DNA of 60,078 nucleotides from an uncultured Eubacteriales bacterium (GTDB taxonomy: Bacteria; Bacillota; Clostridia; Oscillospirales; Oscillospiraceae). The stretch lies in NCBI GenBank assembly GCA_900319465.1, contig ONOL01000008.1:1-60078 (forward strand). The letters run 5' to 3'. The translations under genes were made by a program, and so were the position numbers. Within the stretch, counting starts at the first letter, position 1, and each line of letters opens with the position of its first letter. The notes under the pieces were generated by a model, which saw only the letters and a list, made by a program, of their open reading frames with translations, was not told where the DNA came from and made no database searches. This document shows, piece by piece, positions 43,965-59,798 of the stretch.

Positions 43965-46900
43965 GTGCGGAATGGGAAGATCAGACTTTTGGCATTGCTG
44001 CTGACGGCGGCGGTGCTGTTCAGCTTTGCGCCGGGGGTTTACGCCATGAATGAGACGGCGGCGCAGGAGACGGAGCAGGCGGCGGAGGAAGCCGCGCTCT
44101 CTTCTCCTGGGCTTGCCGGCCCGGAGCGGGAGGACGAAACGGAAGCGCTTTCGGACGGGAACGGAGCTGATCCTGTCCCGGCGGAGGAAGGCGGAGCGGC
44201 AGCGCCGATCAAAGCCGCCGCGCTGCCGGAAGAGGTGAAAGAGGAAGCCACGACGGGCGTATTCCTGTCCGCCGATAGCGGCGCATCGGAGAGAGGAGCG
44301 CCCTCCGACGAGAACGGAAAAGCCGAAAGCGGAAAAGCAGACGGCGGGGAAAAGGGCGGGAGCCTTACCGTTGCGGAAAAGGCCGCGCCCGTCGTCCTGA
44401 ACGAGGGCGGAGAGGACGAGATCCGCATCTCCGTCGACGGCGGGACTGAGGGCCGGGAACTCCTGGCGGAGCAGATCCCGGACGGCGAGGCATACACGGC
44501 CGCCGTCGAGGCGGCGGAGGCTGCCGGCGGCGCGAAGGTCGCGGAGGTCCTGCTGGCGCTGGCGCTCCGGCTCAGCCCGGAGAGCGAGGGCGCGCTCGCC
44601 GTCACGGTCGAGAGCGGGCTTCTGCGCGATCCGCAGCCCTCCTCACAGCCCGTCCTCTTCCGAATCCGGGGCGGCACGGCGACAAAGCTGGATTCCGCGC
44701 TGGATCAGAGCGAGGGCAGGCTCAGCTTCCGAACGGAAGAGCTGGCGCAATTTATCCTGGTCCGTTTTGCGCCTGCGGCGGAGGCTGCCGACGGGACGCG
44801 GGAAGACGCCGCCCTGCTGCGTGAGACCCCGCAGCGGACTTCGGGCGGGCTGACGAACGACAGCTACGGCGAACTGTATTATTCCTGGAATATCCGCTGG
44901 AATACCGTCGCGGACGGCACCAACTATACCTATGACGCGGACGGCTGCCTGCTGCTCCATCCCTACGACCGTTCCTCGCTCAACGCCTCCATCTCCGTGG
45001 AGCTGGACGTGTCCGCGGGTGATTCCGAGACGCAGGAGACGATCCCTGCCGGGGCGGTGGAGTTCCGCATCCCCGCGCATCTGTTCTACGGCTGGAACGA
45101 CAATGCGGCGGACGTCCTGTCCACGCAGGTTCCCACGGATCCGGCCGCGGCCGCGAACAACAAGGTCTCCTTTATCTACCGCATCGAGGGCGAGGAGATC
45201 GTGATCAGCAACTTTGAGCCGCTGGAGGGCGGTACCTACTTCACGGCCGACTTTGCCTATATCGCCAATCCTCTCGACGTGGACGGCGGCTATCCGGACG
45301 ACAGCAAGGAACACACGAACTGGTGGGACAACTATCTGGGAGGCTATCGCAAGACCTTTGAGGCCGCCTTTTCCATCACGGACGGCAACGAGAGCAAGGG
45401 CGGGACAAAGCCCTTCTCCCTCCGCCTCATGACGCGTGTTATTTCCCAGGCCAACTGCGTCGTGATGCCGGACGCCAACAAGGGTGTCTATCTTGCCTGG
45501 CAGAGCGTCTGGGGAGAGCGGCCCGACGACGCCGATCAATTCTTCTATATCCTGTGGAACGTGGAATACGGCAAAGATTCCGCAAGACGTGTCACCCAGC
45601 CGATGCAGAGCGTGCTTTTTGTTGATGATGAGGAAAACGCGATCACGATCAACGGTCAGCGCTTTGTTCCCAGCGTCGTCGGCACGCTGAAAACCGGCGA
45701 CAATGTGCATGGCGCAATGGAGTACTCCCGGGGCACATTCACGTATTACAGACACAAAGGCGCGCCGGCGGGCATTGCCGGGGTTACCGCTCCGGGATGT
45801 CGGCTCGTCTTCTCTTCCTATAACAATCTGGGTTATGAATGCTCTGTCTCCCAGGAACTGAGAGCGACGCATTACGCCGTGCTCCTGCGCTATCCCTGGG
45901 CGGCGCTTGATGCCGCAAGGGAGGCGGGGATCAATCTCGCGGAAGCAGGGCTCCCCGTCACCGGCAAATTCCACACAAAGGAGACCTGGGACAGCGGATA
46001 TCAGCGAGATTTACCCTCGCAGGATTCCACGCTCGTTTTTCTGAAAGACGGCGGCAGCGGCAGCACCTTTTCCAAGACGGGCGGCCTCCAGATCGACGGC
46101 GGCCAGACCCTGCTGCTCAACGGCGAGTATGTGGACGGAACCCAGTACTGGATCTTCAGTCTGAATTACAACGGCTACTCCCGCCGCCAGGGAGACCGGC
46201 TGCTCGGGCAGAAAATCGTGATAAGCGACGAGTCCATGTGGGCCTCCTCAAGCAAGGCGGACAACTGCAACACCTGGTCTCCCTCGGATAAAATAGATCT
46301 GGAACCGAGCGACTACCGGTTCCGGGGCTTCTGGATCAATAACCTGGCCGAGATCGGCGGACAGTATACCCACGGCTACTGGGTTGAGGATGCGGCGGTA
46401 AGCAAGGATTATGACGCCTACGAGCCGCTCTACCTCTACATCAAGACGGTCAGCGAGAATGTGACTTCGGATTATGTACCGTACTGCGCGGTGAAGCGCA
46501 CCGGAGACAGCAGCTATGAGGTGCGCCTTTGGGACGGGGAAAACCTGGGAGACGTGATTCCGGCGTCGCTGCCCTCCTCCGGCTATCCGCTGCCGGAAAA
46601 CACGGTGGCGCTCAAGCCGGTCCATACCAGTGCGTTCTTCCGCTGCGCCGTGAACATCCTCCTTGGCGTCCGCCTGATGCCGACCGCCAATTTTCAGCAG
46701 ATCGTGCAGACGCACGTGGACAATGACGCCTCAACTTTCGTATGGAACTATGCGACCTGCGAGGTTTCAGAGCCCGGAGGCACAGTCTATTTTACAACCG
46801 ATAACAAGGACACATTGTACCGCATCGTCTTGACGCCGTTGATTGCCAACCTCGGCGTTCAGGTGACGAGCCTGACCCCCGACGACACGGATGAGCGGCA

Positions 46901-49373
46901 GAAAGCCGCCGCCGCACAGGATAAGGAGATCTCCCATGTGATGCTCACCGGCTCCATGGTCGTCAACCTGACTCCGGAGGACGCCAGGCACACCTCGGCG
47001 GAGGAGCCCTACAAGATCCTCGAAGGGACCTTCCATGCGCTGCTGCCGAAGGGCACGACGGTCCAGGAGGGTTCGATCATCGGTTATTACGACCGCTATC
47101 GGCAGGGCTTCCCTACCACGATCAATGACTATGTCGCCAGAGGATGCAGATTCTACAACACCAGCTCCAGCACCATCATTTCGCCGGACAACATCGACTG
47201 CTCCAGCTATGTCGACGAAGCGACGGGGCAGACCATGCTGGCTATCCACTATAAGTTTGCCGATCCGGACCTGTGGCAGTATGACGGATGCTGGTTTAAC
47301 CGGATGCACATAGTCCTCACACTGGAAAACAGCTTTGACAACGTCCAGGACCGCGGCACCCAGACGCCGCTTGCGGCGTCCTTCGAGATCCCGACCAAGC
47401 CGGCAAGCGTCAAGATCGCCCCGTCCAACGAGTTTGAAGCCGCGGAAATGGGCGAGCGGGCGAGCGCGTTTGCGGACGTCCACAGCTCCGGCAGGTACGC
47501 GGCCTATACGCAGGCCAACATCAACTGGAACGCGGTGCGCGTGCTGGAGGCGGGCTTCAAGAAAGCGGTCGGCAATCAGGAGAGCCTGAACGGCCTTCCC
47601 GCGGACAACGCTTACAGCTCCGAGACCCGCGTCACGACCGGCAACGCGTACTCCTACCGGCTGAAGATCTCCAACAATCCCAAGACGAAGGCGGACCACA
47701 TCGTCTTCTATGACGTTCTGGAACGGGGGACGGTCGACCGGCCTGAATCGGCATGGCGCGGCGTTCTCCGCGGCGTGGATCTGAGCACGATCCGGCAGAC
47801 TCCGACCGACGGCGGCACGGCCGTCTGCGATCCGGTGGTGTACTACTCGACCGCAGTCGTCACGCCGGTCGAGCCCGAAGCCGATTTCGGCGACCTCACG
47901 GATCCCTCCCTGTGGTCGACGACCATGCCCGAGGACAGGAGCCGGATCACCGCGATCGCGATCGACTGCAGCAGGGCGAGCGACGGCAGCAGCTTTATCC
48001 TGGGGCGCGAACAGACGCTCACCGCCTATCTGCTCATGGATTCTCCCAAGACCTACGTGGAGGGGAAGACGGTGAACGGCGCGGTGGCCCGGGCAAGAGC
48101 CTTTGAAAACGAAGTGCCGCTGGAATACAACGGGCCGAACGCGAAAATGATGTCGGATTCCGCTGTGACGCTCTGCCCGCTGGTGCTGGCGATCCACAAG
48201 CAGTCCGATCCCGCCTCGGGTACCGATGAGGCGCCCTGCCTCGTGCGCGGCGGCGGGACGATCGACTATACCGTCAGCGTCGAGAACAAGGGAAGCTACG
48301 ACGCGCGCGAGGTCACGGTGACGGATACCATTCCGGAAGGATTGACGATCACCGGGATCAAGGTCTCCCTCAACGGCGCGGAGCCGGGGGAGATCGGGAG
48401 CGTCTCCGGCGTCACGATGACGAGAGACGGCAACGCGCTCCGCTTCGTGATCGCGCAGCAGCACCCCGGCGAGGACAAACAGACCCGCTTTTTCATCAGC
48501 ACGAGCGTCGATGCGCTGCAGCAGCCGGGAGAGCGCCGCTATGTGAACACCGCGTATCTCACTTCCGCAAACGGCATCCCGCAGGATCTGCAGAGCGAGA
48601 CTACCTACCATCTCGCCGCCGTGGTGAACGTCGAGGTGGAGAAAAAGTGGTTCGGTACCCCGAAGAACAGCATCAGCGTCGTCCTTCTGCGCAACGGCGA
48701 GGAATGCGAAACCGTGCAGCTTGACGCGGCCTGCGGCTGGAAGCACTGCTTCGCGCTTCTTGAAAAATACGGCGCGGACGTCGGCAGCCCCTTCGACTAC
48801 CGCCCGGAGGAGACCGACCTCGGGGACGTGCACTACGTTTCCGATCTGAACGGCAGCATGGAGGACGGCTTCGTGATCTCGAACCGGGAGCTGCTGTCGC
48901 TGACGATCCGGAAGGCGGTCACGGGCAATATGGGAAGCCGCGCGGCAAGCTTTGACTTCACGGTTCAGATCGACGCCATGAGCGGGAAAAGCTTTCCCGG
49001 TGCGGACGGCAGCCCCGTGACGTTTGACGGCAGCGGCCTTGCCCGCTTCTCCCTCCGCGACGGCGAGTCCGTGACGATCCCCGGCGTGCCCGGCGGTGTC
49101 GCGGTGACGGTCCGGGAGCTGACGGGCGTTTCCTACACGACGGGCTGGACGCTCACCGCCGCCCCCGATACGGCGGCCGCCTCCGGCAGCGGCAAGGAGG
49201 CGAGCTTCACCATGCCGAACACAGACGGCACGCTGAAGGTCACCAACAGGCTTGGCATCGTGATCCCCACCGGCGTTGAGACCGGCGCCGCCGCGGCGCT
49301 GGCGCTGTCGGCGCTCGCTGCGGGCTGCCTGACGGTTCTGGCCGCCTCCCGCCGCAGACGCAGACGCGCCTGA
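43965..49373 (+). CDS. Giant secreted surface protein with DUF11/Cna_B-like domains
   Basis: An 1802-residue exported protein. Signal peptide at 1-34 (KIRLLALLLTAAVLFSFAPGVYA), an acidic Ala/Glu/Ser-rich linker to about 250, a long beta-rich unknown region to about 1420 with many Trp, Tyr and Asp residues, a DUF11-type repeat near 1425-1545 (IDYTVSVENKGSYDAREVTV), a Cna_B-like domain near 1550-1640 (NVEVEKKWFG), a pilin-like FctA/Cna_B domain near 1643-1760 (LSLTIRKAVTGNMGSRAASF), then IPTGVETG, a hydrophobic helix and RRRRRRA. That end is a wall-anchor pattern like the PTGV type of clostridial pilin-like proteins. Start is GTG with AGGGAGGA 8 bases before it. Probably an adhesin; no sortase gene is in the window. 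Confidence 0.88.
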   Translation: MRNGKIRLLALLLTAAVLFSFAPGVYAMNETAAQETEQAAEEAALSSPGLAGPEREDETEALSDGNGADPVPAEEGGAAAPIKAAALPEEVKEEATTGVFLSADSGASERGAPSDENGKAESGKADGGEKGGSLTVAEKAAPVVLNEGGEDEIRISVDGGTEGRELLAEQIPDGEAYTAAVEAAEAAGGAKVAEVLLALALRLSPESEGALAVTVESGLLRDPQPSSQPVLFRIRGGTATKLDSALDQSEGRLSFRTEELAQFILVRFAPAAEAADGTREDAALLRETPQRTSGGLTNDSYGELYYSWNIRWNTVADGTNYTYDADGCLLLHPYDRSSLNASISVELDVSAGDSETQETIPAGAVEFRIPAHLFYGWNDNAADVLSTQVPTDPAAAANNKVSFIYRIEGEEIVISNFEPLEGGTYFTADFAYIANPLDVDGGYPDDSKEHTNWWDNYLGGYRKTFEAAFSITDGNESKGGTKPFSLRLMTRVISQANCVVMPDANKGVYLAWQSVWGERPDDADQFFYILWNVEYGKDSARRVTQPMQSVLFVDDEENAITINGQRFVPSVVGTLKTGDNVHGAMEYSRGTFTYYRHKGAPAGIAGVTAPGCRLVFSSYNNLGYECSVSQELRATHYAVLLRYPWAALDAAREAGINLAEAGLPVTGKFHTKETWDSGYQRDLPSQDSTLVFLKDGGSGSTFSKTGGLQIDGGQTLLLNGEYVDGTQYWIFSLNYNGYSRRQGDRLLGQKIVISDESMWASSSKADNCNTWSPSDKIDLEPSDYRFRGFWINNLAEIGGQYTHGYWVEDAAVSKDYDAYEPLYLYIKTVSENVTSDYVPYCAVKRTGDSSYEVRLWDGENLGDVIPASLPSSGYPLPENTVALKPVHTSAFFRCAVNILLGVRLMPTANFQQIVQTHVDNDASTFVWNYATCEVSEPGGTVYFTTDNKDTLYRIVLTPLIANLGVQVTSLTPDDTDERQKAAAAQDKEISHVMLTGSMVVNLTPEDARHTSAEEPYKILEGTFHALLPKGTTVQEGSIIGYYDRYRQGFPTTINDYVARGCRFYNTSSSTIISPDNIDCSSYVDEATGQTMLAIHYKFADPDLWQYDGCWFNRMHIVLTLENSFDNVQDRGTQTPLAASFEIPTKPASVKIAPSNEFEAAEMGERASAFADVHSSGRYAAYTQANINWNAVRVLEAGFKKAVGNQESLNGLPADNAYSSETRVTTGNAYSYRLKISNNPKTKADHIVFYDVLERGTVDRPESAWRGVLRGVDLSTIRQTPTDGGTAVCDPVVYYSTAVVTPVEPEADFGDLTDPSLWSTTMPEDRSRITAIAIDCSRASDGSSFILGREQTLTAYLLMDSPKTYVEGKTVNGAVARARAFENEVPLEYNGPNAKMMSDSAVTLCPLVLAIHKQSDPASGTDEAPCLVRGGGTIDYTVSVENKGSYDAREVTVTDTIPEGLTITGIKVSLNGAEPGEIGSVSGVTMTRDGNALRFVIAQQHPGEDKQTRFFISTSVDALQQPGERRYVNTAYLTSANGIPQDLQSETTYHLAAVVNVEVEKKWFGTPKNSISVVLLRNGEECETVQLDAACGWKHCFALLEKYGADVGSPFDYRPEETDLGDVHYVSDLNGSMEDGFVISNRELLSLTIRKAVTGNMGSRAASFDFTVQIDAMSGKSFPGADGSPVTFDGSGLARFSLRDGESVTIPGVPGGVAVTVRELTGVSYTTGWTLTAAPDTAAASGSGKEASFTMPNTDGTLKVTNRLGIVIPTGVETGAAAALALSALAAGCLTVLAASRRRRRRA

Positions 49374-49551: not shown

Positions 49552-49587
49552 GAATAAGTTATGAAATGCTATTTCACAGGAGCCGCC

Positions 49588-50652
49588 ATGGAAACGGAAA
49601 ACCTCCCGGTCGCAGAGACCAAAGCGAAAAAGAGAATGCCGAAGCCGCTTGCGCGCACCCTCAGCTTTCTGGGTGTGACGCTTCTGTGCGCGCTTGTGAC
49701 CCTGCTGGGCGTGATCTGGGTGCTGGAAAAGGGCCCCTCGCCCACCGCGACCGAGATCTTTACCCGCTCCGTCCGCGAGACCAGCGCGCTGCGCTGGGTG
49801 TCCCGCATCTTCCTGAGCGAGGAGGAGCTGGAGCGGTACAAGTCCGTCAGCTCTCCCATCGAGGAGGGACAGAGCATCAACACCTCGCTCATCCACATGG
49901 CGGAGAGCGTGGAGGAGGCGGAGGACGACGGCCCCGGCTTTGAGATCCTCGACATCTCCGAGGGCACCTGCAAGGGCAAGCTCCTGATCGTGGACGATCC
50001 GAAGCGGGTCATCCTCGGCACCTCCGACGACTTCGGGCAGGCGCCCGGCTGGGAGCTGACCGAGATGGTGGAGCGCTACGGCGCCGTTGCGGGCATCAAC
50101 GCCGGCGGCTTCAACGACGAGGGCGGCCGCGGCAACGGCAGCACGCCCCAGGGACTCGTCATCGACGACGGCAAGGTCACCTGGGGCGCCAACCACGTCG
50201 GCGGCTTCCACGTGGTCGGCCTCGATGAGGACGGCATCCTGCACGTGGGCTTCATGACCGTACAGCAGGCGCTGGACGCGCATATGCGCTGGGCGGTCAG
50301 CTTTGAGACCTACGACGGGCTGGCCTCCGCGCTGATCCTCAACGGCGAGGTTCAGAAGAACAACCTCGGCGGCGGCGTGAATCCCCGCACGGCCATCGGC
50401 CAGCGGGAGGACGGCGCGCTGCTGCTGCTCGTGCTGGACGGGCGCAGCATCAGCACCCTCGGCGCCACCATGCAGGATCTCTGCGACATCATGCTGGAGT
50501 ACGGCGCGGTGAACGCCGGCAATCTGGACGGCGGCTCCTCGTCCGTCATGGTCTACGAGGGCAAGATCATCAACAACTGCGCCTCCGTAGTGGGGCCGCG
50601 CCGCATCCCCACGGCGTTTTTACTGATGAAAGAGGGTGACGTGGATGGCTGA
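49588..50652 (+). CDS. Membrane-anchored phosphodiester glycosidase (NAGPA domain)
   Basis: A 354-residue protein: basic start, one TM helix at about 26-48 (LSFLGVTLLCALVTLLGVIWVL), a linker, and from about residue 110 a NAGPA/PF09992 catalytic domain outside the membrane. Family motifs are GAVAGINAGGFNDEGGRGNG (near 165), PQGLVIDDGKV, NPRTAIGQREDG and GAVNAGNLDGGSSSVMV (near 310), ending with PRRIPTAFLLM. Relatives cleave the GlcNAc phosphodiester on mannose-6-phosphate or sugar-phosphodiester links in exopolysaccharides. ATG at 49588 has CAGGAG before it and removes a 9-residue upstream extension. First gene of a three-gene operon. Confidence 0.85.
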   Translation: METENLPVAETKAKKRMPKPLARTLSFLGVTLLCALVTLLGVIWVLEKGPSPTATEIFTRSVRETSALRWVSRIFLSEEELERYKSVSSPIEEGQSINTSLIHMAESVEEAEDDGPGFEILDISEGTCKGKLLIVDDPKRVILGTSDDFGQAPGWELTEMVERYGAVAGINAGGFNDEGGRGNGSTPQGLVIDDGKVTWGANHVGGFHVVGLDEDGILHVGFMTVQQALDAHMRWAVSFETYDGLASALILNGEVQKNNLGGGVNPRTAIGQREDGALLLLVLDGRSISTLGATMQDLCDIMLEYGAVNAGNLDGGSSSVMVYEGKIINNCASVVGPRRIPTAFLLMKEGDVDG

Positions 50653-53112: not shown

Positions 53113-53161
53113 GCGTTTCACCGTGTTTTCCCGGCCGCCCTCGCCCCGGCGAAGGCCGGAA

Positions 53162-53193
53162 AAAAACTCCCGCCGCGGGCGGGAGTTTTTTTC
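53162..53193. terminator. Bidirectional terminator
   Basis: AAAAACTCCCGCC and GGCGGGAGTTTTT pair around GCG and end in seven T on the plus strand and six A before the stem, so it can end the PK-like transcript and the convergent ATPase-like gene. Confidence 0.92.
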
Positions 53194-53206
53194 GTCCTGT
53201 CCCAAA

Positions 53207-56200
53207 TCAGAATTTCAGAAACAGGCTTGCGGCCGCGACGGGCAGGGCCCAGAGCACCAGGAACGCGAACAGGAAGGGCACGCCGACCTGCCCCACAGTG
53301 AGGAAGCGGATGAAGACCGTGAACACACCCGCGACCGCCGCGATCAGCGTCACGATCAGATTCAGGCGCGTGGCCAGATACATGCTCCGACCGGTATCCG
53401 CCATCAGCGACAGGGGGCCGAGCCCCTCGCGGCAGATCACGGCGGCGATGGGCGCCTCCGAATCCGCCGGCGCCTCGGAGAGCTTGAAGCGCTCCATATA
53501 GGGCGGGAAGTCGTAGCCGTCGGTGGCGACCTCGAACAGCTCCCGCAGCATTTCGGGATTGACGTTGAAATCGCGCACGGCGAAGACCGGATGGCGGCTG
53601 GAACGGATCAGACCGATCAGCGCCTTGCGCACCTGCGGCTGGGGCAGATACTTCATGTTGAAGATGCCGTAGAGCACGCCGTCCACCGCGAGCAGCACCG
53701 TGGTCTTGTCCACCAGGCGGTAGGGGATGCGGACGTTCATCAGCCGCATCAGCTCCGTGCCGCCGCAGAGCACCGTGCTGCCGTCGATGACGCCCTTCAT
53801 GCCGCCGCCGGGGAGGAACTCGAAGTTGTCCACATGGCGCATGGTGCCGCCGTTGCGGTTCATCAGCTCGGCAAAGCAGGGGGCGATGCCGGAGCCGGAG
53901 GCAAGGATCATGGTGCCGGCGTAGGAGAGGATCTTCTCGGGCTCGGCGTCGGCAAAGATACGCACCGTGTCGACCTCCACGCTGCCCTCGGGGAAGAGAT
54001 CCCGGTCGGTGATGATGAGGTTCTGGCTCCGGCCGACGTCGCTCAGGCCGGACCATCCGGCCACGGCGGCGCCGCTGTAAAAGATGCGGTTGGAGCCGAG
54101 AAAATAGGGGAGCGAGAAGCAGAGCAGGGCCGTTACCGGGACGGCGGGGCTCAGCAGCGCGGTGAGGATATACAGGAAGTCGCCCCCCGCGTGCCGCGCG
54201 GCGGCGATGACGACGGCGAAGATGAGGCTCAGGATCAGCAGCGCCGGGGCGGCCCGCAGGAAAGCGGTCTCGTCCGGCCCGGCCTCCTCCGTGCGGCGCA
54301 CAAAGCCCACGATGGGCCGGTCGGTCTTGAGCAGGGTGATCCCCTTGCCCTTGAGCTCGCTCTCCCCGGTCACGCTGTAACAGCGCTTGGCGATGGAGGG
54401 CACCCGCAGGGCCTTGCGCAGGCCGCGGGCGGCGAGCAGCGAGGAATACAGCACGCCCAGGAGCGACAGGCTCGAGAGCAGGCAGAGAGGCATATGCGGC
54501 GTACCGAAGGCGTCCAGCGCGACGGCCAGCGCGTCAAAGCTTGTGAGCACGCAGGTCAGCGCCGCGAGCGAATCCGCCCCGAAGCGGAGCCGCGCCATGT
54601 TGACGGCGGCGGTCGTGATCACATCGAGGCTCAGCAGCATGATGACGAGCTGCAGCGCAAGGCACATCCCGGCCGCGACCTTCACCGTGCGCAGCATGCC
54701 GGAGACGGGAAGGCCCAGACTGATCCACGCGAGGATCGCCAGCAGGCCGAGCCCGATGCGGAAGCGCATCCGCAGCGAAGGCACGGCGGAGCCATAGTAT
54801 TTCGAGGCGGCGGCGGGCGCGACCTCCGGCCCCAGGTCCTCCCCGTCGGTATCCATGGTGACGGAGTTGGGGTTCGAGGAGAAGCCGCGCAGGCGGTAGA
54901 GCGTGCCGGTAATGAGGCTGGAGACGTACTGGGCAAAGCTCGGGAACTCCCCGTTCTCGTCCAGCGGCAGCGCTTCCTCCAAACGGCGGCGGGCCTTTTC
55001 CGGCCTTTGTGCCGCGGCGGGGGCGTCCTCCTCCGCGTCCTCCGTCGTCCCGTCGCGCTCCTCCGCGTCTTCCGGGGGGGCGTAGTCCTTCCCGGGAGCG
55101 TAGGCGGCAGGCGCGGCGGCGCTGTCGTCAAAGGTAAAATCGAAGCTGAAATCGTCCGCGGCGGGGGCGTCGGCCTTTTCAGCGGGCACGGCGAAAACCA
55201 CCGTGTCGTCGGCGTCGGCCTCCTTCCCACCGGAGGAATCCTGCGCCCCGGCAGGCACGGCGTCCTGCTCGGCCTCGGTCAGCGTGGTGGGATAGGCGCT
55301 GCGGGAGCGCCTGGCCGGGGCATTGAGCGGGCGCTTCTTCTCGCCGCGGCGGCTGCCGTTGAAGCTCATGATCCGCTGGAGCAGACCGGGCTTCTCCGTC
55401 GGCGCGTCGGGCAGATCCTCCTCCCCGGCGGTCCAGTGGTAGATCGGCTCGCTCTTCTGCACGGGCGGCACATAGCTCTCGTCCGCGCTCAGGTCCAGCT
55501 CCTTATCGCCGAAGACCATCTTCTCCTCGTGGCCGCTGAGATTGTAGCGCTCGACCCCGGCGTCCCGCTTCGCGGGGGCGGCGGGCTTCGGCGCGGCGGC
55601 CATCCGGTCGTAATCCTCGTCCGTCAGGGAGTTCATATAGCGCATGGCCTCGTCCGCCATGGCGGAGAGGGCGCTGATCTTTTCCTTTGAGGAGGCGACG
55701 GCGCTGGTCCCGGCGGCAAAGGCCGCGTAATCCTCGGCGCTGGCCCTGGGCGCGGCGTCCCGGTCGGGCTTCTTCGGCGTGAAGAACTGCGTCTTCTCAG
55801 GATCGGCTTTCGCGGCAGCCTCCACGGGCTTCTCGGCGAAAACCTTGTCGTATTCCTTTAAAATATCCTCCAGGGAGAGGCTGACCGCCTCCTCCGCCGG
55901 CTGGGACGGAAGCCCGTCGGCAGGCGTTTCAAGCGGGGAGAGTTCCTCCGGCGCGCTCCGGAAGAGATCGCCGAAGACGTCGAGCCCGTCCTTGCCCTCG
56001 CCGGCGCCTGTCTGCTGTTTTTCCGATTCAAAATCCATAGGTTTCTCCGTCTCCGCGCGCGCGGCGCGGCTGTTGTTTGCGGGGCTTTCGCGGGAAGGGA
56101 TGCGCGAGCGCAGAGACGCAATGGGGGAGCGCGGCGTTTCGCGCTTCTTTGCCGTCGCGTCGCTCCGGCGCTGCGGCGGGGCGCTGTGACGCGGCGGCGC

Positions 56201-56353
56201 CGACCGCTCCCGGCGGGACTGCGGCGGGCGCTCCGCGCGCCGTACCTCCGGCCCCGGCGCTGCGGCGCCCTCCTCCTGCGCGTAAAATTCCCGCAGGATG
56301 TCATCCACACTCATGGACGAGGGCTCTATTCCCTTGTAGAAATCCTGATCCAT
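53207..56353 (-). CDS. P-type-ATPase-like membrane protein lacking catalytic motifs
   Basis: A 1048-residue protein. Residues 1 to about 525 are acidic, Pro/Ala/Glu-rich and mostly disordered, with two similar helices SVDDILREFYAQE (14-27) and SLEDILKEYDKVF (near 160). From about 528 come six TM helices, a soluble block of about 250 residues, and two more helices (VTLIAAVAGVFTVFI, FLFAFLVLWALPVAAASLFL): the 8-TM layout of P1B ATPases. The membrane SPAVP stands where CPC/SPC lies in ion pumps. The phosphorylation loop expected as DKTGT is ITDRDLFPEG (near 781), TGDN is replaced by VRDFNV (near 926) and no GDGxND is found, so ATPase activity is very unlikely. RBS AAAGGGG precedes the ATG. It follows rlmB by 37 bases. 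Confidence 0.75.
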   Translation of the reverse strand: MDQDFYKGIEPSSMSVDDILREFYAQEEGAAAPGPEVRRAERPPQSRRERSAPPRHSAPPQRRSDATAKKRETPRSPIASLRSRIPSRESPANNSRAARAETEKPMDFESEKQQTGAGEGKDGLDVFGDLFRSAPEELSPLETPADGLPSQPAEEAVSLSLEDILKEYDKVFAEKPVEAAAKADPEKTQFFTPKKPDRDAAPRASAEDYAAFAAGTSAVASSKEKISALSAMADEAMRYMNSLTDEDYDRMAAAPKPAAPAKRDAGVERYNLSGHEEKMVFGDKELDLSADESYVPPVQKSEPIYHWTAGEEDLPDAPTEKPGLLQRIMSFNGSRRGEKKRPLNAPARRSRSAYPTTLTEAEQDAVPAGAQDSSGGKEADADDTVVFAVPAEKADAPAADDFSFDFTFDDSAAAPAAYAPGKDYAPPEDAEERDGTTEDAEEDAPAAAQRPEKARRRLEEALPLDENGEFPSFAQYVSSLITGTLYRLRGFSSNPNSVTMDTDGEDLGPEVAPAAASKYYGSAVPSLRMRFRIGLGLLAILAWISLGLPVSGMLRTVKVAAGMCLALQLVIMLLSLDVITTAAVNMARLRFGADSLAALTCVLTSFDALAVALDAFGTPHMPLCLLSSLSLLGVLYSSLLAARGLRKALRVPSIAKRCYSVTGESELKGKGITLLKTDRPIVGFVRRTEEAGPDETAFLRAAPALLILSLIFAVVIAAARHAGGDFLYILTALLSPAVPVTALLCFSLPYFLGSNRIFYSGAAVAGWSGLSDVGRSQNLIITDRDLFPEGSVEVDTVRIFADAEPEKILSYAGTMILASGSGIAPCFAELMNRNGGTMRHVDNFEFLPGGGMKGVIDGSTVLCGGTELMRLMNVRIPYRLVDKTTVLLAVDGVLYGIFNMKYLPQPQVRKALIGLIRSSRHPVFAVRDFNVNPEMLRELFEVATDGYDFPPYMERFKLSEAPADSEAPIAAVICREGLGPLSLMADTGRSMYLATRLNLIVTLIAAVAGVFTVFIRFLTVGQVGVPFLFAFLVLWALPVAAASLFLKF

Positions 56354-56390: not shown

Positions 56391-57152
56391 TCAGCTTCCG
56401 CTTCTCTGGCGCAGGATCTCGTACATCGTGATGGCGGCTGCGGCGGAGGCGTTGAGGGAGCTGACCTGCCCCTTCATGGGTAGGCTCACGATAAAGTCGC
56501 AGCTCTCGGAAACCAGACGGCCCATCCCGTCCCCCTCGGAGCCGATCACCAGCGCGAGCGGCCCGGTGAAGTCGGTGTGCCAGAGGTCGGACTGCCCGTC
56601 GGCGGCGGTGCCGTAGATCCACAGGCCCCGCTCCTTCAGCTCCCGGATCACCGCCGGGAGGTTGGGGACCCTCGCAATGGCCATGTGCTCGGCGGCGCCG
56701 GCGCTGGCCTTGTCCACGATGGCGGTCAGCCCCGCGCTGCGGCGCTTGGGGATGATGATCCCGTGGGCGCCGGCACATTCGGCGGAGCGGATGATGGCGC
56801 CGAGGTTGTGCCCGTCGCTGATCTCGTCGCAGACGATGACGAAGGGCGTCTCGCCCCGGCCCTCGGCGATGGCGAAGATGTCGTCCACCGTGCAGTATTC
56901 CCGCACGGCGCACACGGCGATCACGCCCTGGTGGGCGTGGGTCTGGCTCATGAAGTCCAGCTTGCGCCGGTCGCACTCCACCACGACGACGCCCTTGTCC
57001 CGGGCGGCGGAGGCGATGTGCCCCAGCGTTTTGTCGACCTCGCCCTTGTTGATGAAAAGCTTGTCAATGGCGCGTCCGGCGCGCAGCGCCTCCATGACGG
57101 CGTTGCGCCCTTCGATGATCTCATTTTGAATGCCCTGCTTGTTGTACTCCAC
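56391..57152 (-). CDS. rlmB: 23S rRNA (guanosine-2'-O)-methyltransferase RlmB (SpoU family)
   Basis: A 253-residue SAM-dependent methyltransferase of the SPOUT class acting on 23S rRNA G2251. N-terminal L30e-like domain with EGRNAVMEALRAGRAIDKLFI, then the SPOUT knot: DEISDGHNLGAIIRSAECAGAHGIIIPKRRSAGLTA (motif 1), LALVIGSEGDGMGRLV (motif 2) and VSLPMKGQVSSLNASAAAAITMYE (motif 3). ATG at 57152. It is followed on the same strand by the large P-type-like gene after 37 bases, so the two probably share a transcript though their jobs appear unrelated. Confidence 0.95.
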   Translation of the reverse strand: MEYNKQGIQNEIIEGRNAVMEALRAGRAIDKLFINKGEVDKTLGHIASAARDKGVVVVECDRRKLDFMSQTHAHQGVIAVCAVREYCTVDDIFAIAEGRGETPFVIVCDEISDGHNLGAIIRSAECAGAHGIIIPKRRSAGLTAIVDKASAGAAEHMAIARVPNLPAVIRELKERGLWIYGTAADGQSDLWHTDFTGPLALVIGSEGDGMGRLVSESCDFIVSLPMKGQVSSLNASAAAAITMYEILRQRSGS

Positions 57153-57354: not shown

Positions 57355-57747
57355 ATGAAACGAGTCATCAGTCTGCTGGTTTTGCTTGCGCTTGCGCTGA
57401 CGCTCTGCGCCTGCGGGTCCGCGCCTGCGAAGGAGAGCGAGAAGCCTGCCAATATGCAGTCCAGTCTGCCCGGCACTTCCTCCGCCGCGGAGGAACCGGA
57501 AGAGAGCGCCGAGCCTGCCGCCGAGGGCGACAGCGCGGCGGAGGAAGCGGTGCTGGCTGCCCGCAAGCTGAAGGATCGCCCGGTGTCTGAGCTCTTCGCC
57601 GTGATCGGCGAGCCTGTTTCCGAGGATGCCGCGCCGAGCTGCATGGGTCCCGGCGAGGACGTCAATCTGTATTACGACGGCTTTACGGTCTACACCTATA
57701 AGGATGGAGACTCCCAGATCGTAGTCGACGCGGAGGTGAGCAAATGA
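57355..57747 (+). CDS. Small predicted lipoprotein
   Basis: A 130-residue lipoprotein. Signal peptide with lipobox LCAC, Cys at about residue 19, an Ala/Glu/Ser-rich spacer to about 65, then a short domain (LKDRPVSELFAVIGEPVSEDAAPSCMGPGEDVNLYYDGFTVYTYKDGDSQIVVDAEV) of the BamE/SmpA-like or DUF type by pattern; family uncertain. AGAAGGGG precedes the ATG at 57355. Its stop overlaps the next gene by 4 bases (ATGA), so the pair is translationally coupled and likely acts together at the cell surface. Confidence 0.82.
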   Translation: MKRVISLLVLLALALTLCACGSAPAKESEKPANMQSSLPGTSSAAEEPEESAEPAAEGDSAAEEAVLAARKLKDRPVSELFAVIGEPVSEDAAPSCMGPGEDVNLYYDGFTVYTYKDGDSQIVVDAEVSK

Positions 57748-58760
57748 GCCGCCCGAAGAGAAAGCGCCGTTCCCTCTGGCAGATCGTGGTATTCCTGCTG
57801 CTGGCGCTGCTGCTGGCGGGGATCCTGCTGCTTGCGAAAATCCGCCTGAACCGCCAGATGCAGGCGGCTGAACCCACGGCCGCGCCCGAGGTTACCGCCG
57901 AGCCCACACCGGAGCCGACCCCAACCCCGTCTCCGACGCCCGCCCCGACCCCGACCCCGACGCCGGAGCCTACGCCCGACGGACTCTACCACACGGGCGA
58001 TGCGGAGTTGGACCAGCTCCTGTACGCCGTGATTGCCGAGAAGACGGACGAGAGCATGAGCGACGAGGAGAAGCTCCACGCGCTCTACGAGTACGTCTCC
58101 GGGAGCTTCGGCTATCTGCGCCGGAATTACTACGAGCCCGGCGAGCATGACTGGCTCAATGAGGAAGCCAAGACCATGCTGACCGAGCGCAACGGCAACT
58201 GCTACAACTTTGCCGCCACCTTCTGCCTGCTGGCACGCTGCATCGGCTACGATGCGGAGGCATACAGCGGCACGATCTACGGCCGCGCGGAGCCGGGGCA
58301 GACCCGCCCGCCCGATCGTCCCCACGGCTGGGTAGAGATCGAGATCGACGGCCAGACCTATATTTTCGACCCGGACATGCAGGCTGTCGTGGCTTACTGG
58401 TACCAGGATGACAGCTTCTATATGCAGGACGACGGCATCCGCAACCAGTACGGCTACACGAAGGCCGAGAGCGATCAGAAGCCCGAGCCGACGCCGGAGC
58501 CGACCAAGGCGCCCGCCGAGAACGCCGGCAGCACGACGCAGAACTATACGCCCGCGCAGAATTACACGCCGGCCCAGAACAATACCCCGGCCACACCTGC
58601 ACCGGCTACGCCTGCGCCTTCTACACCCGCACCTTCTACGCCCGCCCCGGCTACTCCTGCACCGGCCACGCCTGCGCCGGCCACGCCTGCGCCCACCGAC
58701 CCGCCTCCTCCCGATCCCGGCCCCGAGGAGGACGAGGGGGAAGTCGTGATTGCCGGATGA
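57744..58760 (+). CDS. Membrane-anchored transglutaminase-like protein
   Basis: A 338-residue protein: basic start, a TM helix at about 12-32 (IVVFLLLALLLAGILLLA), a Pro/Thr-rich spacer (residues about 45-75), a transglutaminase-like domain at about 80-235 with catalytic-type Cys in NGNCYNFAATF (near 153), His in PHGWVEIEI (near 193) and Asp in FDPD (near 208), and a long Pro/Thr/Ala-rich tail with TPAP repeats (about 250-330). Cys, His and Asp are in the order of the papain-like triad, so hydrolase or cross-linking activity outside the membrane is plausible. Coupled to the preceding lipoprotein gene. Confidence 0.85.
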   Translation: MSRPKRKRRSLWQIVVFLLLALLLAGILLLAKIRLNRQMQAAEPTAAPEVTAEPTPEPTPTPSPTPAPTPTPTPEPTPDGLYHTGDAELDQLLYAVIAEKTDESMSDEEKLHALYEYVSGSFGYLRRNYYEPGEHDWLNEEAKTMLTERNGNCYNFAATFCLLARCIGYDAEAYSGTIYGRAEPGQTRPPDRPHGWVEIEIDGQTYIFDPDMQAVVAYWYQDDSFYMQDDGIRNQYGYTKAESDQKPEPTPEPTKAPAENAGSTTQNYTPAQNYTPAQNNTPATPAPATPAPSTPAPSTPAPATPAPATPAPATPAPTDPPPPDPGPEEDEGEVVIAG

Positions 58761-58967
58761 TCGGCGCAGAAGTTACAAAAAAGCCATGATTTTGCCGCCC
58801 GCATCGGGTATGATAAGCCAAAAGCGCTTATCCCGTGACGCATGAGCCCGCGCCGCCCTTCGGGCCGCCGGGGGCGTGACGGATCATTCCGCGGCCGCGA
58901 AAGCGTCCGGGATGAGAGACCCGGCGGGCGGTTCCGTCCCGCGCAACGATACTGGAGGAAGCTCCCT

Positions 58968-59798
58968 ATGAAAGATCCGAGAAAAGCAATCGAACGCTTC
59001 TGCTACCGACATCCCGGCTTCGGCGTCTCGCGCCTGATGCTGTATGTTTCCCTTGCCAACGTGGCGATGTGGATCCTGGGCGCGGTGAACAGCCGTATCC
59101 TCGGCTACCTGACCTTCAATCCCTATCTCGTGCTGCACGGGCAGGTCTGGCGGCTCGTTACCTTTGCGCTCTATCCGCCCGACGGAGGGCTTTTCGCCTT
59201 CCTTATGTTCTATTTCTACTACTGGATCGGGACCACGCTTGAGCAGTACTGGGGTACGCCGCAGTTCAACATCTTCTTTTTCTCCGGCCTGCTCCTGACG
59301 CTGCTGTACGGTTTTTTGGTCTATTTCATCACGGGCGTCAGCGTGCAGCTCACGGCGCAGTACGTGTACCTGTCCATGTTCTTCGCCTTTGCCACGCTTT
59401 TCCCCGATATGCAGGTGCTGCTGTTTTTCATCATCCCGGTCAAAATGAAGTGGCTGGCGCTGCTTAACGCGGCGTTTTTCCTCGCCGGGGTGCTGACCTC
59501 GCCTTTCCCGGTGAACCTGCTGCCGATCGTTGCGATCCTGAACTTCTTCCTCTTCTGCGGCGGGGAGCTCTGGCACATGATCCCGAGGCGCGCGAGCGCG
59601 AACACCGTCAACTTCCGGCGCGAATCCCGGCGCATCCGCCGCGAGCAGCGCGACCAGCTCTACCACCACAAGTGCGCCGTCTGCGGCCGCACGGACGTGA
59701 CGAATCCGGAGCTGGAGTTCCGTTACTGCTCCCGCTGCGCGGGTTACCACTGCTTCTGCCCGGAGCACATCAACAACCATATCCACTTTACCGAGTAA
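58968..59798 (+). CDS. Rhomboid-fold membrane protein with C-terminal zinc-binding domain
   Basis: A 276-residue membrane protein. Residues about 15-205 carry the rhomboid-type pattern: SRLMLYVSLANVAMWIL (TM1), GQVWRLVTFALYP, YYWIGTTLEQYWGTPQF, then several helices and PVKMKWLALLNAAFFLAGVL. The catalytic GxSG serine motif and the His dyad partner of rhomboid proteases are not seen, so it is a pseudo-rhomboid by eye. The C-terminal about 55 residues hold CAVCGRTDVTNPELEFRYCSRC and a HCFCPEHINNHIHF segment, a likely zinc-binding fold on the cytoplasmic side. GGAGGA precedes the ATG at 58968. Single gene with a hairpin downstream. Confidence 0.82.
   Translation: MKDPRKAIERFCYRHPGFGVSRLMLYVSLANVAMWILGAVNSRILGYLTFNPYLVLHGQVWRLVTFALYPPDGGLFAFLMFYFYYWIGTTLEQYWGTPQFNIFFFSGLLLTLLYGFLVYFITGVSVQLTAQYVYLSMFFAFATLFPDMQVLLFFIIPVKMKWLALLNAAFFLAGVLTSPFPVNLLPIVAILNFFLFCGGELWHMIPRRASANTVNFRRESRRIRREQRDQLYHHKCAVCGRTDVTNPELEFRYCSRCAGYHCFCPEHINNHIHFTE

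Follow-up and report, generated by a model that had tools for sequence, protein, structure and literature searches.

In the window, a 60,078-nucleotide stretch of contig ONOL01000008.1 from an uncultured Eubacteriales bacterium (assembly GCA_900319465.1), we examined a minus-strand gene whose product begins with a long disordered arm and continues as a membrane and headpiece part resembling a P-type ATPase. Our analyses indicate that this protein belongs to a family of P1B (CopA-like) pump homologues that have lost the motifs of the transport cycle, that the gene is widely retained in its order under purifying selection, and that a short motif of the arm recurs at the C-terminus of LspA (signal peptidase II). 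We put at about one half the probability that this P1B pump descendant no longer transports and has been kept to serve as a docking platform, anchored in the membrane at its inner face.

A P1B pump fold without its catalytic motifs

Profile and alignment comparisons show the family to be homologous to P1B pumps by fold and descent. The family profile matches CopA structures in the Protein Data Bank (E 4e-32), a single-sequence search of the same database with the window protein found CopB (E 0.006), and structure work found the M, P and N domains of the P-type ATPase fold rather than a fold dissimilar to it. Ten hydropathy windows of the window protein merge into eight helices in the P1B order, as the original prediction had it, and both strings on which that prediction drew, the N-domain-like segment GGGMKGVIDGSTVLCGG and SPAVP at the CPC position, are present as quoted. 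In a FastTree phylogeny the 16 CopA sequences form a single clade with a support of 1.0. The Pfam models PF00122 and PF00702, which had been proposed as a check, matched none of 27 family members at E 0.01; the sole Pfam row among these 27 was DUF4079 in one member (E 0.0064), and the window protein is without any Pfam match. Heavy-metal ATPase models of NCBIfam matched the window protein below threshold only (E 1.4e-4 and 1.2e-4), and a weak match to the NCBIfam model PTPDL_fam (E 0.09) was disregarded.

We aligned 113 members (112 order-level loci and the window protein) jointly with the 16 CopA sequences, which come from genomes of the same order. DKTGT, CPC, TGES and GDGxND stand in their own columns in all 16 CopA sequences and in none of the 113 members. 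The replacements that the original prediction had read in the window protein, TDRDLFPEG for DKTGT and VRDFNV for TGDN, with no GDGxND, were confirmed, and the loss proved common to the orthologs, with none of the 113 members keeping an intact DKTGT that would point to a local pseudogene. GDGxND is absent from anywhere in the aligned region in the 113 members, one of which ends at a contig end before that region. The TGES columns are all gap in 109 members and hold other letters in 4, and the actuator (A) domain region spans 46–81 residues in members compared with 129 in the CopA controls. The window protein does contain the letters TGES, at residues 662–665, which occur in none of the other 112 order-level members; within the genus, TGES or TGET is found in 8 of 29 loci, where it may be a shifted remnant of the actuator loop. 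At the CPC columns, Cys occupies the first position in 4 and the third in 2 of the 113 members and the Pro is kept in 72%; most or all members have other residues in the YN and MxxSS columns. The Asp of TGD is retained in 110 members, now within D-x-N (N in 78%). Trp1035 is Trp in 107 members at a place where CopA has Ser (15/16), and together with Y902 it is a new near-invariant residue of the family.

Motif I, which replaces DKTGT, fits xDx[DE]h[FY]P in 67 of the 113 members. Its D783 falls one column past the phospho-Asp in both MAFFT alignments, in which sliding by one is possible; Asp is found at the D783 column in 89 members and at the phospho-Asp column in 21. Because an Asp persists in motif I, the case for a dead pump rests on the set of lost motifs and not on the phospho-Asp alone. 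The same pattern would suit an unusual active enzyme, a HAD-type phosphatase acting through D-x-D, the form that the first motif of the HAD superfamily takes in phosphatases; we regard this as very improbable, with A, E or S at the D783 column in 24 of 113 members and the stretch that would hold the fourth HAD motif and its acidic pair missing in all. A P-type cycle is itself unlikely, because the protein is without the phosphorylation loop, GDGxND, the metal site and most of the actuator domain.

Retention and conservation across the order

Within the genus, 29 of 37 genomes match at E 1e-123 or better (among 60 relatives searched), and 112 of 117 genomes of the order, which is probably Oscillospirales in GTDB terms, match the family profile at E 6.9e-78 or better; one of these 112 matches is cut by a contig end (G106) and another is split over two contigs (G109, second piece 2e-46). 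The next-best profile matches start at 2e-37 and cover about positions 198–475, and the 15 weaker matches that we fetched, together with L047, are true CopA. At a cut-off of 1e-38, which cannot tell weaker relatives outside the order from pumps, 6 of 147 genomes of the class matched, all 6 in the same order, as did 2 of 149 genomes of the phylum, both of the same family and including the window's own genome. Most named relatives are uncultured Oscillospiraceae, Ruminococcaceae and Clostridia, many of them from rumen or gut, with one Candidatus Limivicinus and Vescimonas; a Subdoligranulum plasmid match (38% covered) was left unclassified.

Between the window protein and its five nearest relatives, the ratio of nonsynonymous to synonymous substitution rates (dN/dS) by NG86 is 0.15–0.25 in the domain and 0.31–0.48 in the arm, for which YN00 gives 0.15–0.25 in 4 of the five pairs. 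An inherited fold, lost catalytic motifs and purifying selection are thus all found in what appears to be a conserved pseudoenzyme, whose inactivity we infer from the sequences; the proposal that a pump fold had been reused after motif loss agrees with the fold, the CopA profile matches, the order-wide retention and the purifying selection. The lost motifs, a single internal stop in each of G057, G102 and G103 among the 112 order matches, and a broken copy in the genus genome G016 might point to a decaying pseudogene, a reading that we consider next to impossible given frames open across the order, a dN/dS of 0.15–0.25 and the near-invariant W1035 and Y902. A local pseudogene was likewise ruled out by the order-wide open frames and dN/dS.

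Among the 113 members, 34 positions are at least 60% identical, and 25 of them lie in the headpiece, which makes up 219 of the about 530 positions examined. Because mean majority frequencies differ little (headpiece 0.35, CPC helix 0.34, last helices 0.34, others 0.27–0.30), the shift towards the headpiece concerns strongly conserved positions rather than average conservation. In CopA, conservation is highest in the CPC helix (0.82). The membrane-part positions among the 34 are Pro, Gly and Trp1035 only. The original prediction had asked whether residues facing the membrane site are conserved, and no polar or charged membrane residue reaches 60% across the order. The eight helices and the two prolines kept in the CPC helix (P739 in 72%, P749 in 71%) would fit a channel or carrier, either regulated or passive, that draws on a driving force other than ATP. 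We hold it to be improbable, given this lack of conserved polar or charged residues, the replacement of the CPC, YN and MxxSS columns, and the loss of most of the actuator domain, the gating driver in P-type pumps. It is mainly because the conserved membrane path is lost that we prefer a scaffold, receptor or sensor over the regulated channel put forward earlier.

A motif common to the arm and to LspA

Residues 1–525 have a pI of 4.62 (101 Asp and Glu versus 66 Lys and Arg), and in the full-length AlphaFold2 model the predicted local distance difference test score (pLDDT) is below 50 for 399 of 1048 residues, the listed low segments all lying within residues 1–504. The 525-residue disordered acidic N-terminus described originally is therefore borne out overall; its first 100 residues, however, are basic (pI 10.7). 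With no Cys, 3 His, no Pfam match and no N-terminal metal-binding domain matched in these 525 residues, the suggestion that the arm buffers metal did not hold up. Further arm helices lie at 223–253 and 473–489 (pLDDT 71–75 in the same model). Arm length and sequence vary among members, and many carry S-[LIV]-[DE]-[DE]-I-L-x-E-[FY] near the arm start.

In the window's genome (88.5% complete), the codon pattern of this motif occurs at the two arm sites and in LspA only. The motif pattern gave 44 matches in 36 genomes and 0 when reversed; of the 30 loci that we read, 10 belong to this family, 7 are LspA, 1 is a NAGPA protein, 11 are unrelated and 1 is unresolved. The unrelated matches, by our reading mostly a CBS/CorC-like protein, were judged coincidental. 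A related pattern gave 19 matches in 59 genomes, with 1 when reversed; 13 fall in this family, 1 in LspA and 5 elsewhere (EF-Ts-like, UbiB-like and more, by our reading), the last again judged coincidental. Outside the genus, where 101 arms of at least 60 residues were scanned (one being that of the CopA L047), the strict motif is present in 28 and the reversed motif in none; looser forms such as FSLESILAEF also occur. Across 1.71 Mb of sequence biased towards these genes, 92 distinct forward matches were found versus 1 reversed, 80 of them in this family or LspA by homology.

LspA of the window's genome has 349 residues, and the lspA model (TIGR00077) covers residues 2–149, which leaves a tail of about 200 residues. 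By our reading, 25 of 27 complete LspA C-termini in the genus end in [FY]xL[DE][DES]ILxEF[KR] (3 further C-termini are cut), the motif forming the last residues in twenty-four and lying two residues earlier in one; a strict script pattern finds 15 of the 27, and the two LspA without the motif look frameshifted. A sample of 61 genomes of the family yielded LspA loci from 30, with the motif in 11, of which 9 lie outside the genus. All 11 belong to the 13 best matches, whose other two loci have a variant motif (L348) and an apparent frameshift (L349); the motif is missing from the remaining 17. LspA of other families has open frames of 160–226 residues in 16 of 23 rows. The common motif suggests that this protein and LspA may bind to one type of site.

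LspA with a long low-complexity tail ending in a FSLDDILAEFK-type motif was seen in the window's genus and in some neighbouring genera (L051, L214–L242, L342–L353). The motif also stands, as FSLDDILSEF, near the N-terminus of a NAGPA (phosphodiester glycosidase) protein in G014 (L181, 157–1551, minus strand).

A candidate docking platform at the membrane

If the protein is a docking platform, its eight helices would anchor it in the membrane, the P/N headpiece would offer a surface for binding directly beneath it, and members that have the long flexible arm would extend it so that its one or two acidic amphipathic helices dock at a shared site in the cytosol. Because the tailed LspA has the same motif, the platform and LspA would probably meet at the same partner, or LspA would dock on the platform itself, and it is this sharing that makes the organisation of lipoprotein maturation our lead. 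A more far-reaching version, which we think unlikely, would have a stand-alone pseudo-P-type ATPase serve as a core membrane receptor of the order: its headpiece, or a partner that it recruits, would recognise a common acidic amphipathic helix tag, often as an internal ligand on its own arm. In some genera LspA would have gained this tag at its C-terminal end, and a former ion pump would thereby gather lipoprotein maturation around itself. The scaffold or sensor role that was originally proposed, with the arm as interaction region, is likely, since the motif of the arm is common to the LspA tails, but the interacting arm does not extend to the 9 armless members among the 112. Segment 941–970 has a pLDDT of 34–49 in a C-terminal model and 67–82 in the full-length model, a gain which hints that the arm may touch the headpiece, although the comparison is not a controlled one, the two models being built on different alignments.

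Several observations weigh against a docking platform. We identified no binding partner, and contact between the motif and the headpiece is not readable from the structure models. The mean conservation of the headpiece barely exceeds that of the last helices and the CPC helix. Whereas the gene is order-wide, motif-bearing LspA was seen in the genus and in 9 of the other rows read in the family sample, and two genomes (G030, G032) have a motif-tailed LspA and no platform gene, rlmB being missing or the contig cut there. The armless members, all nine of family f10 and with frames of 541–554 residues, imply that arm and motif are not needed everywhere. Outside the genus the strict motif is found in only 28 of about 100 arms, in one of them at position 299 and probably by chance, and many other arms have a looser form or none. 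Finally, the conserved headpiece would fit a sensor equally well.

The nearest rival of the docking platform is a ligand sensor, whose headpiece would bind a nucleotide or a divalent ion and signal to partners; the D-x-[DE] of motif I and the D-x-N of motif II would make up the putative remodelled site. We consider this possible if doubtful: the SEHP adenine-site motif is present in 14 of 16 CopA sequences and in 0 of 113 members, and GDGxND is gone from all. A role in anti-phage defence was set aside, there being no PADLOC match.

Gene layout and the rlmB neighbourhood

Table 1 Features of the gene, its product and its upstream neighbour (residues are those of the window protein).
Feature	Position	Strand	Remarks
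Whole gene	53207..56353	-	1048 residues, ATG to stop; disordered N-terminal arm and eight-helix P1B-derived membrane/headpiece part
N-terminal arm, residues 1–512	54818..56353	-	Mostly disordered, acidic overall, no Cys; from composition and pLDDT mostly <50
Short linear motif copy 1, SVDDILREF, residues 15–23	56285..56311	-	Helix 16–30 in full-length model, block pLDDT 65–76
Short linear motif copy 2, SLEDILKEY, residues 160–168	55850..55876	-	Helix 161–173, block pLDDT 67
First four membrane helices, residues 513–654	54392..54817	-	Hydropathy and structure models
Actuator (A) domain remnant, residues 655–692	54278..54391	-	Joint alignment
Letters TGES, residues 662–665	54359..54370	-	Inside A-domain remnant, outside aligned TGES columns
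Helices five and six, residues 693–758	54080..54277	-	CPC position is V738-P739-V740 at 54134–54142
Cytosolic headpiece (P and N domains), residues 759–977	53423..54079	-	25/34 positions with at least 60% conservation
Motif I, TDRDLFP replacing DKTGT, residues 782–788	53990..54010	-	Alignment
Motif II, VRDFNV, residues 926–931	53561..53578	-	Asp of TGD kept in 110/113, new D-x-N
Last two helices, residues 978–1048, with Trp1035	53210..53422	-	Alignment, conservation
rlmB (23S rRNA 2'-O-methyltransferase)	56391..57152	-	TIGR00186; directly upstream, same strand, 37 bases between genes
Armless f10 members, about 550 residues			Membrane and headpiece part alone; L043, L290, L298, L299, L301–L303, L306, L313

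Upstream of the gene and on the same strand, rlmB is found in 103 of the 112 distinct order-level loci. The first possible start lies −32 to +182 bases from the rlmB stop in 102 of these 103, mostly −4 to +60, with one outlier at 1106; in 15 loci a start is possible at −4, counted from the end of the stop codon. One of the remaining nine loci (L031, in G037) has upstream what we read from its sequence as an Obg-like gene, and eight are truncated where either the contig or the fetched flank ends. Thirteen genomes, 8 of the genus and 5 of the order, are without the gene. Of these, 10 are also without an rlmB match at E ≤ 1e-30 and 3 have a contig that stops 315–422 bases past the rlmB match (G062 shows the gene start at the contig end), so the absences track rlmB or contig ends. 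This linkage, with the 15 starts at −4, might mean that the protein travels with the rlmB operon as a passenger and has a role tied to ribosomes or translation, its membrane part a mere anchor. We rate this as quite improbable, because the evidence is one of neighbourhood alone, the shared absence may be an assembly gap, and L031 has the Obg-like gene in place of rlmB.

Four genomes of the order that are 95–99% complete (G092, G150, G115, G127) are without the gene and have no rlmB match at 1e-30 either, through either joint loss or a joint assembly gap.

An 855-residue antisense gene (53123–55690, plus strand) was rejected, with 5 stops in L073 and 9 in L099; the frame stays open in L078 and L141 and is taken as a codon-bias artefact. 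Other genes in the window, all on the plus strand, are one for a NAGPA phosphodiester glycosidase without the motif (49561–50652), one for an 1802-residue surface-protein-like protein with DUF11, Cna_B and DUF7601 near its C-terminus (43965–49373), one for a transglutaminase-like protein with a TPAP-rich repetitive tail (57744–58760), and one for a membrane protein that matches the Der1 family below threshold (58842–59798; E 7e-4).

Comparison with known systems

Pseudoenzymes are well known among kinases and proteases. In the literature library that we searched, we found no paper combining 'P-type ATPase' and 'pseudoenzyme', none for five spellings of the motif of the arm and LspA, none on order-specific genes, and a single unrelated paper for LspA tails. 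An order-wide pump relative that lacks the pumping parts would show that a P-type fold can be retained for a task other than transport, and the tag common to LspA offers a concrete handle on that task. The family escapes recognition as a P-type ATPase by Pfam and is 'hypothetical' in the one annotated record that we saw.

That record, WP_212820792.1 of Vescimonas fastidiosa MM35, is a family member encoded 10 bases downstream of rlmB; compared with the window protein it is shorter, at 718 residues, with a shorter arm and no annotated function. LspA of the same genus has the short motif at the extreme C-terminus or no more than a few residues from it and is otherwise an unrelated enzyme, with the motif alone in common.

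The closest precedent is the degenerated P4-ATPase domain of guanylyl cyclase beta from Plasmodium falciparum (PMC6592433). The Plasmodium protein is eukaryotic, of P4 type and fused to a cyclase, whereas the protein described here is a stand-alone bacterial one derived from a P1B pump.

The family shares with the P1B-1 copper ATPases (CopA; Legionella CopA, 3rfu/4bbj) the eight-helix order, the P/N fold, the conserved glycines of the N domain and the Asp of TGD. Unlike CopA, it is without DKTGT, GDGxND, CPC or a TGES in its place, its A domain is a remnant, and it usually has a long disordered arm with the helix motif instead of metal-binding domains.
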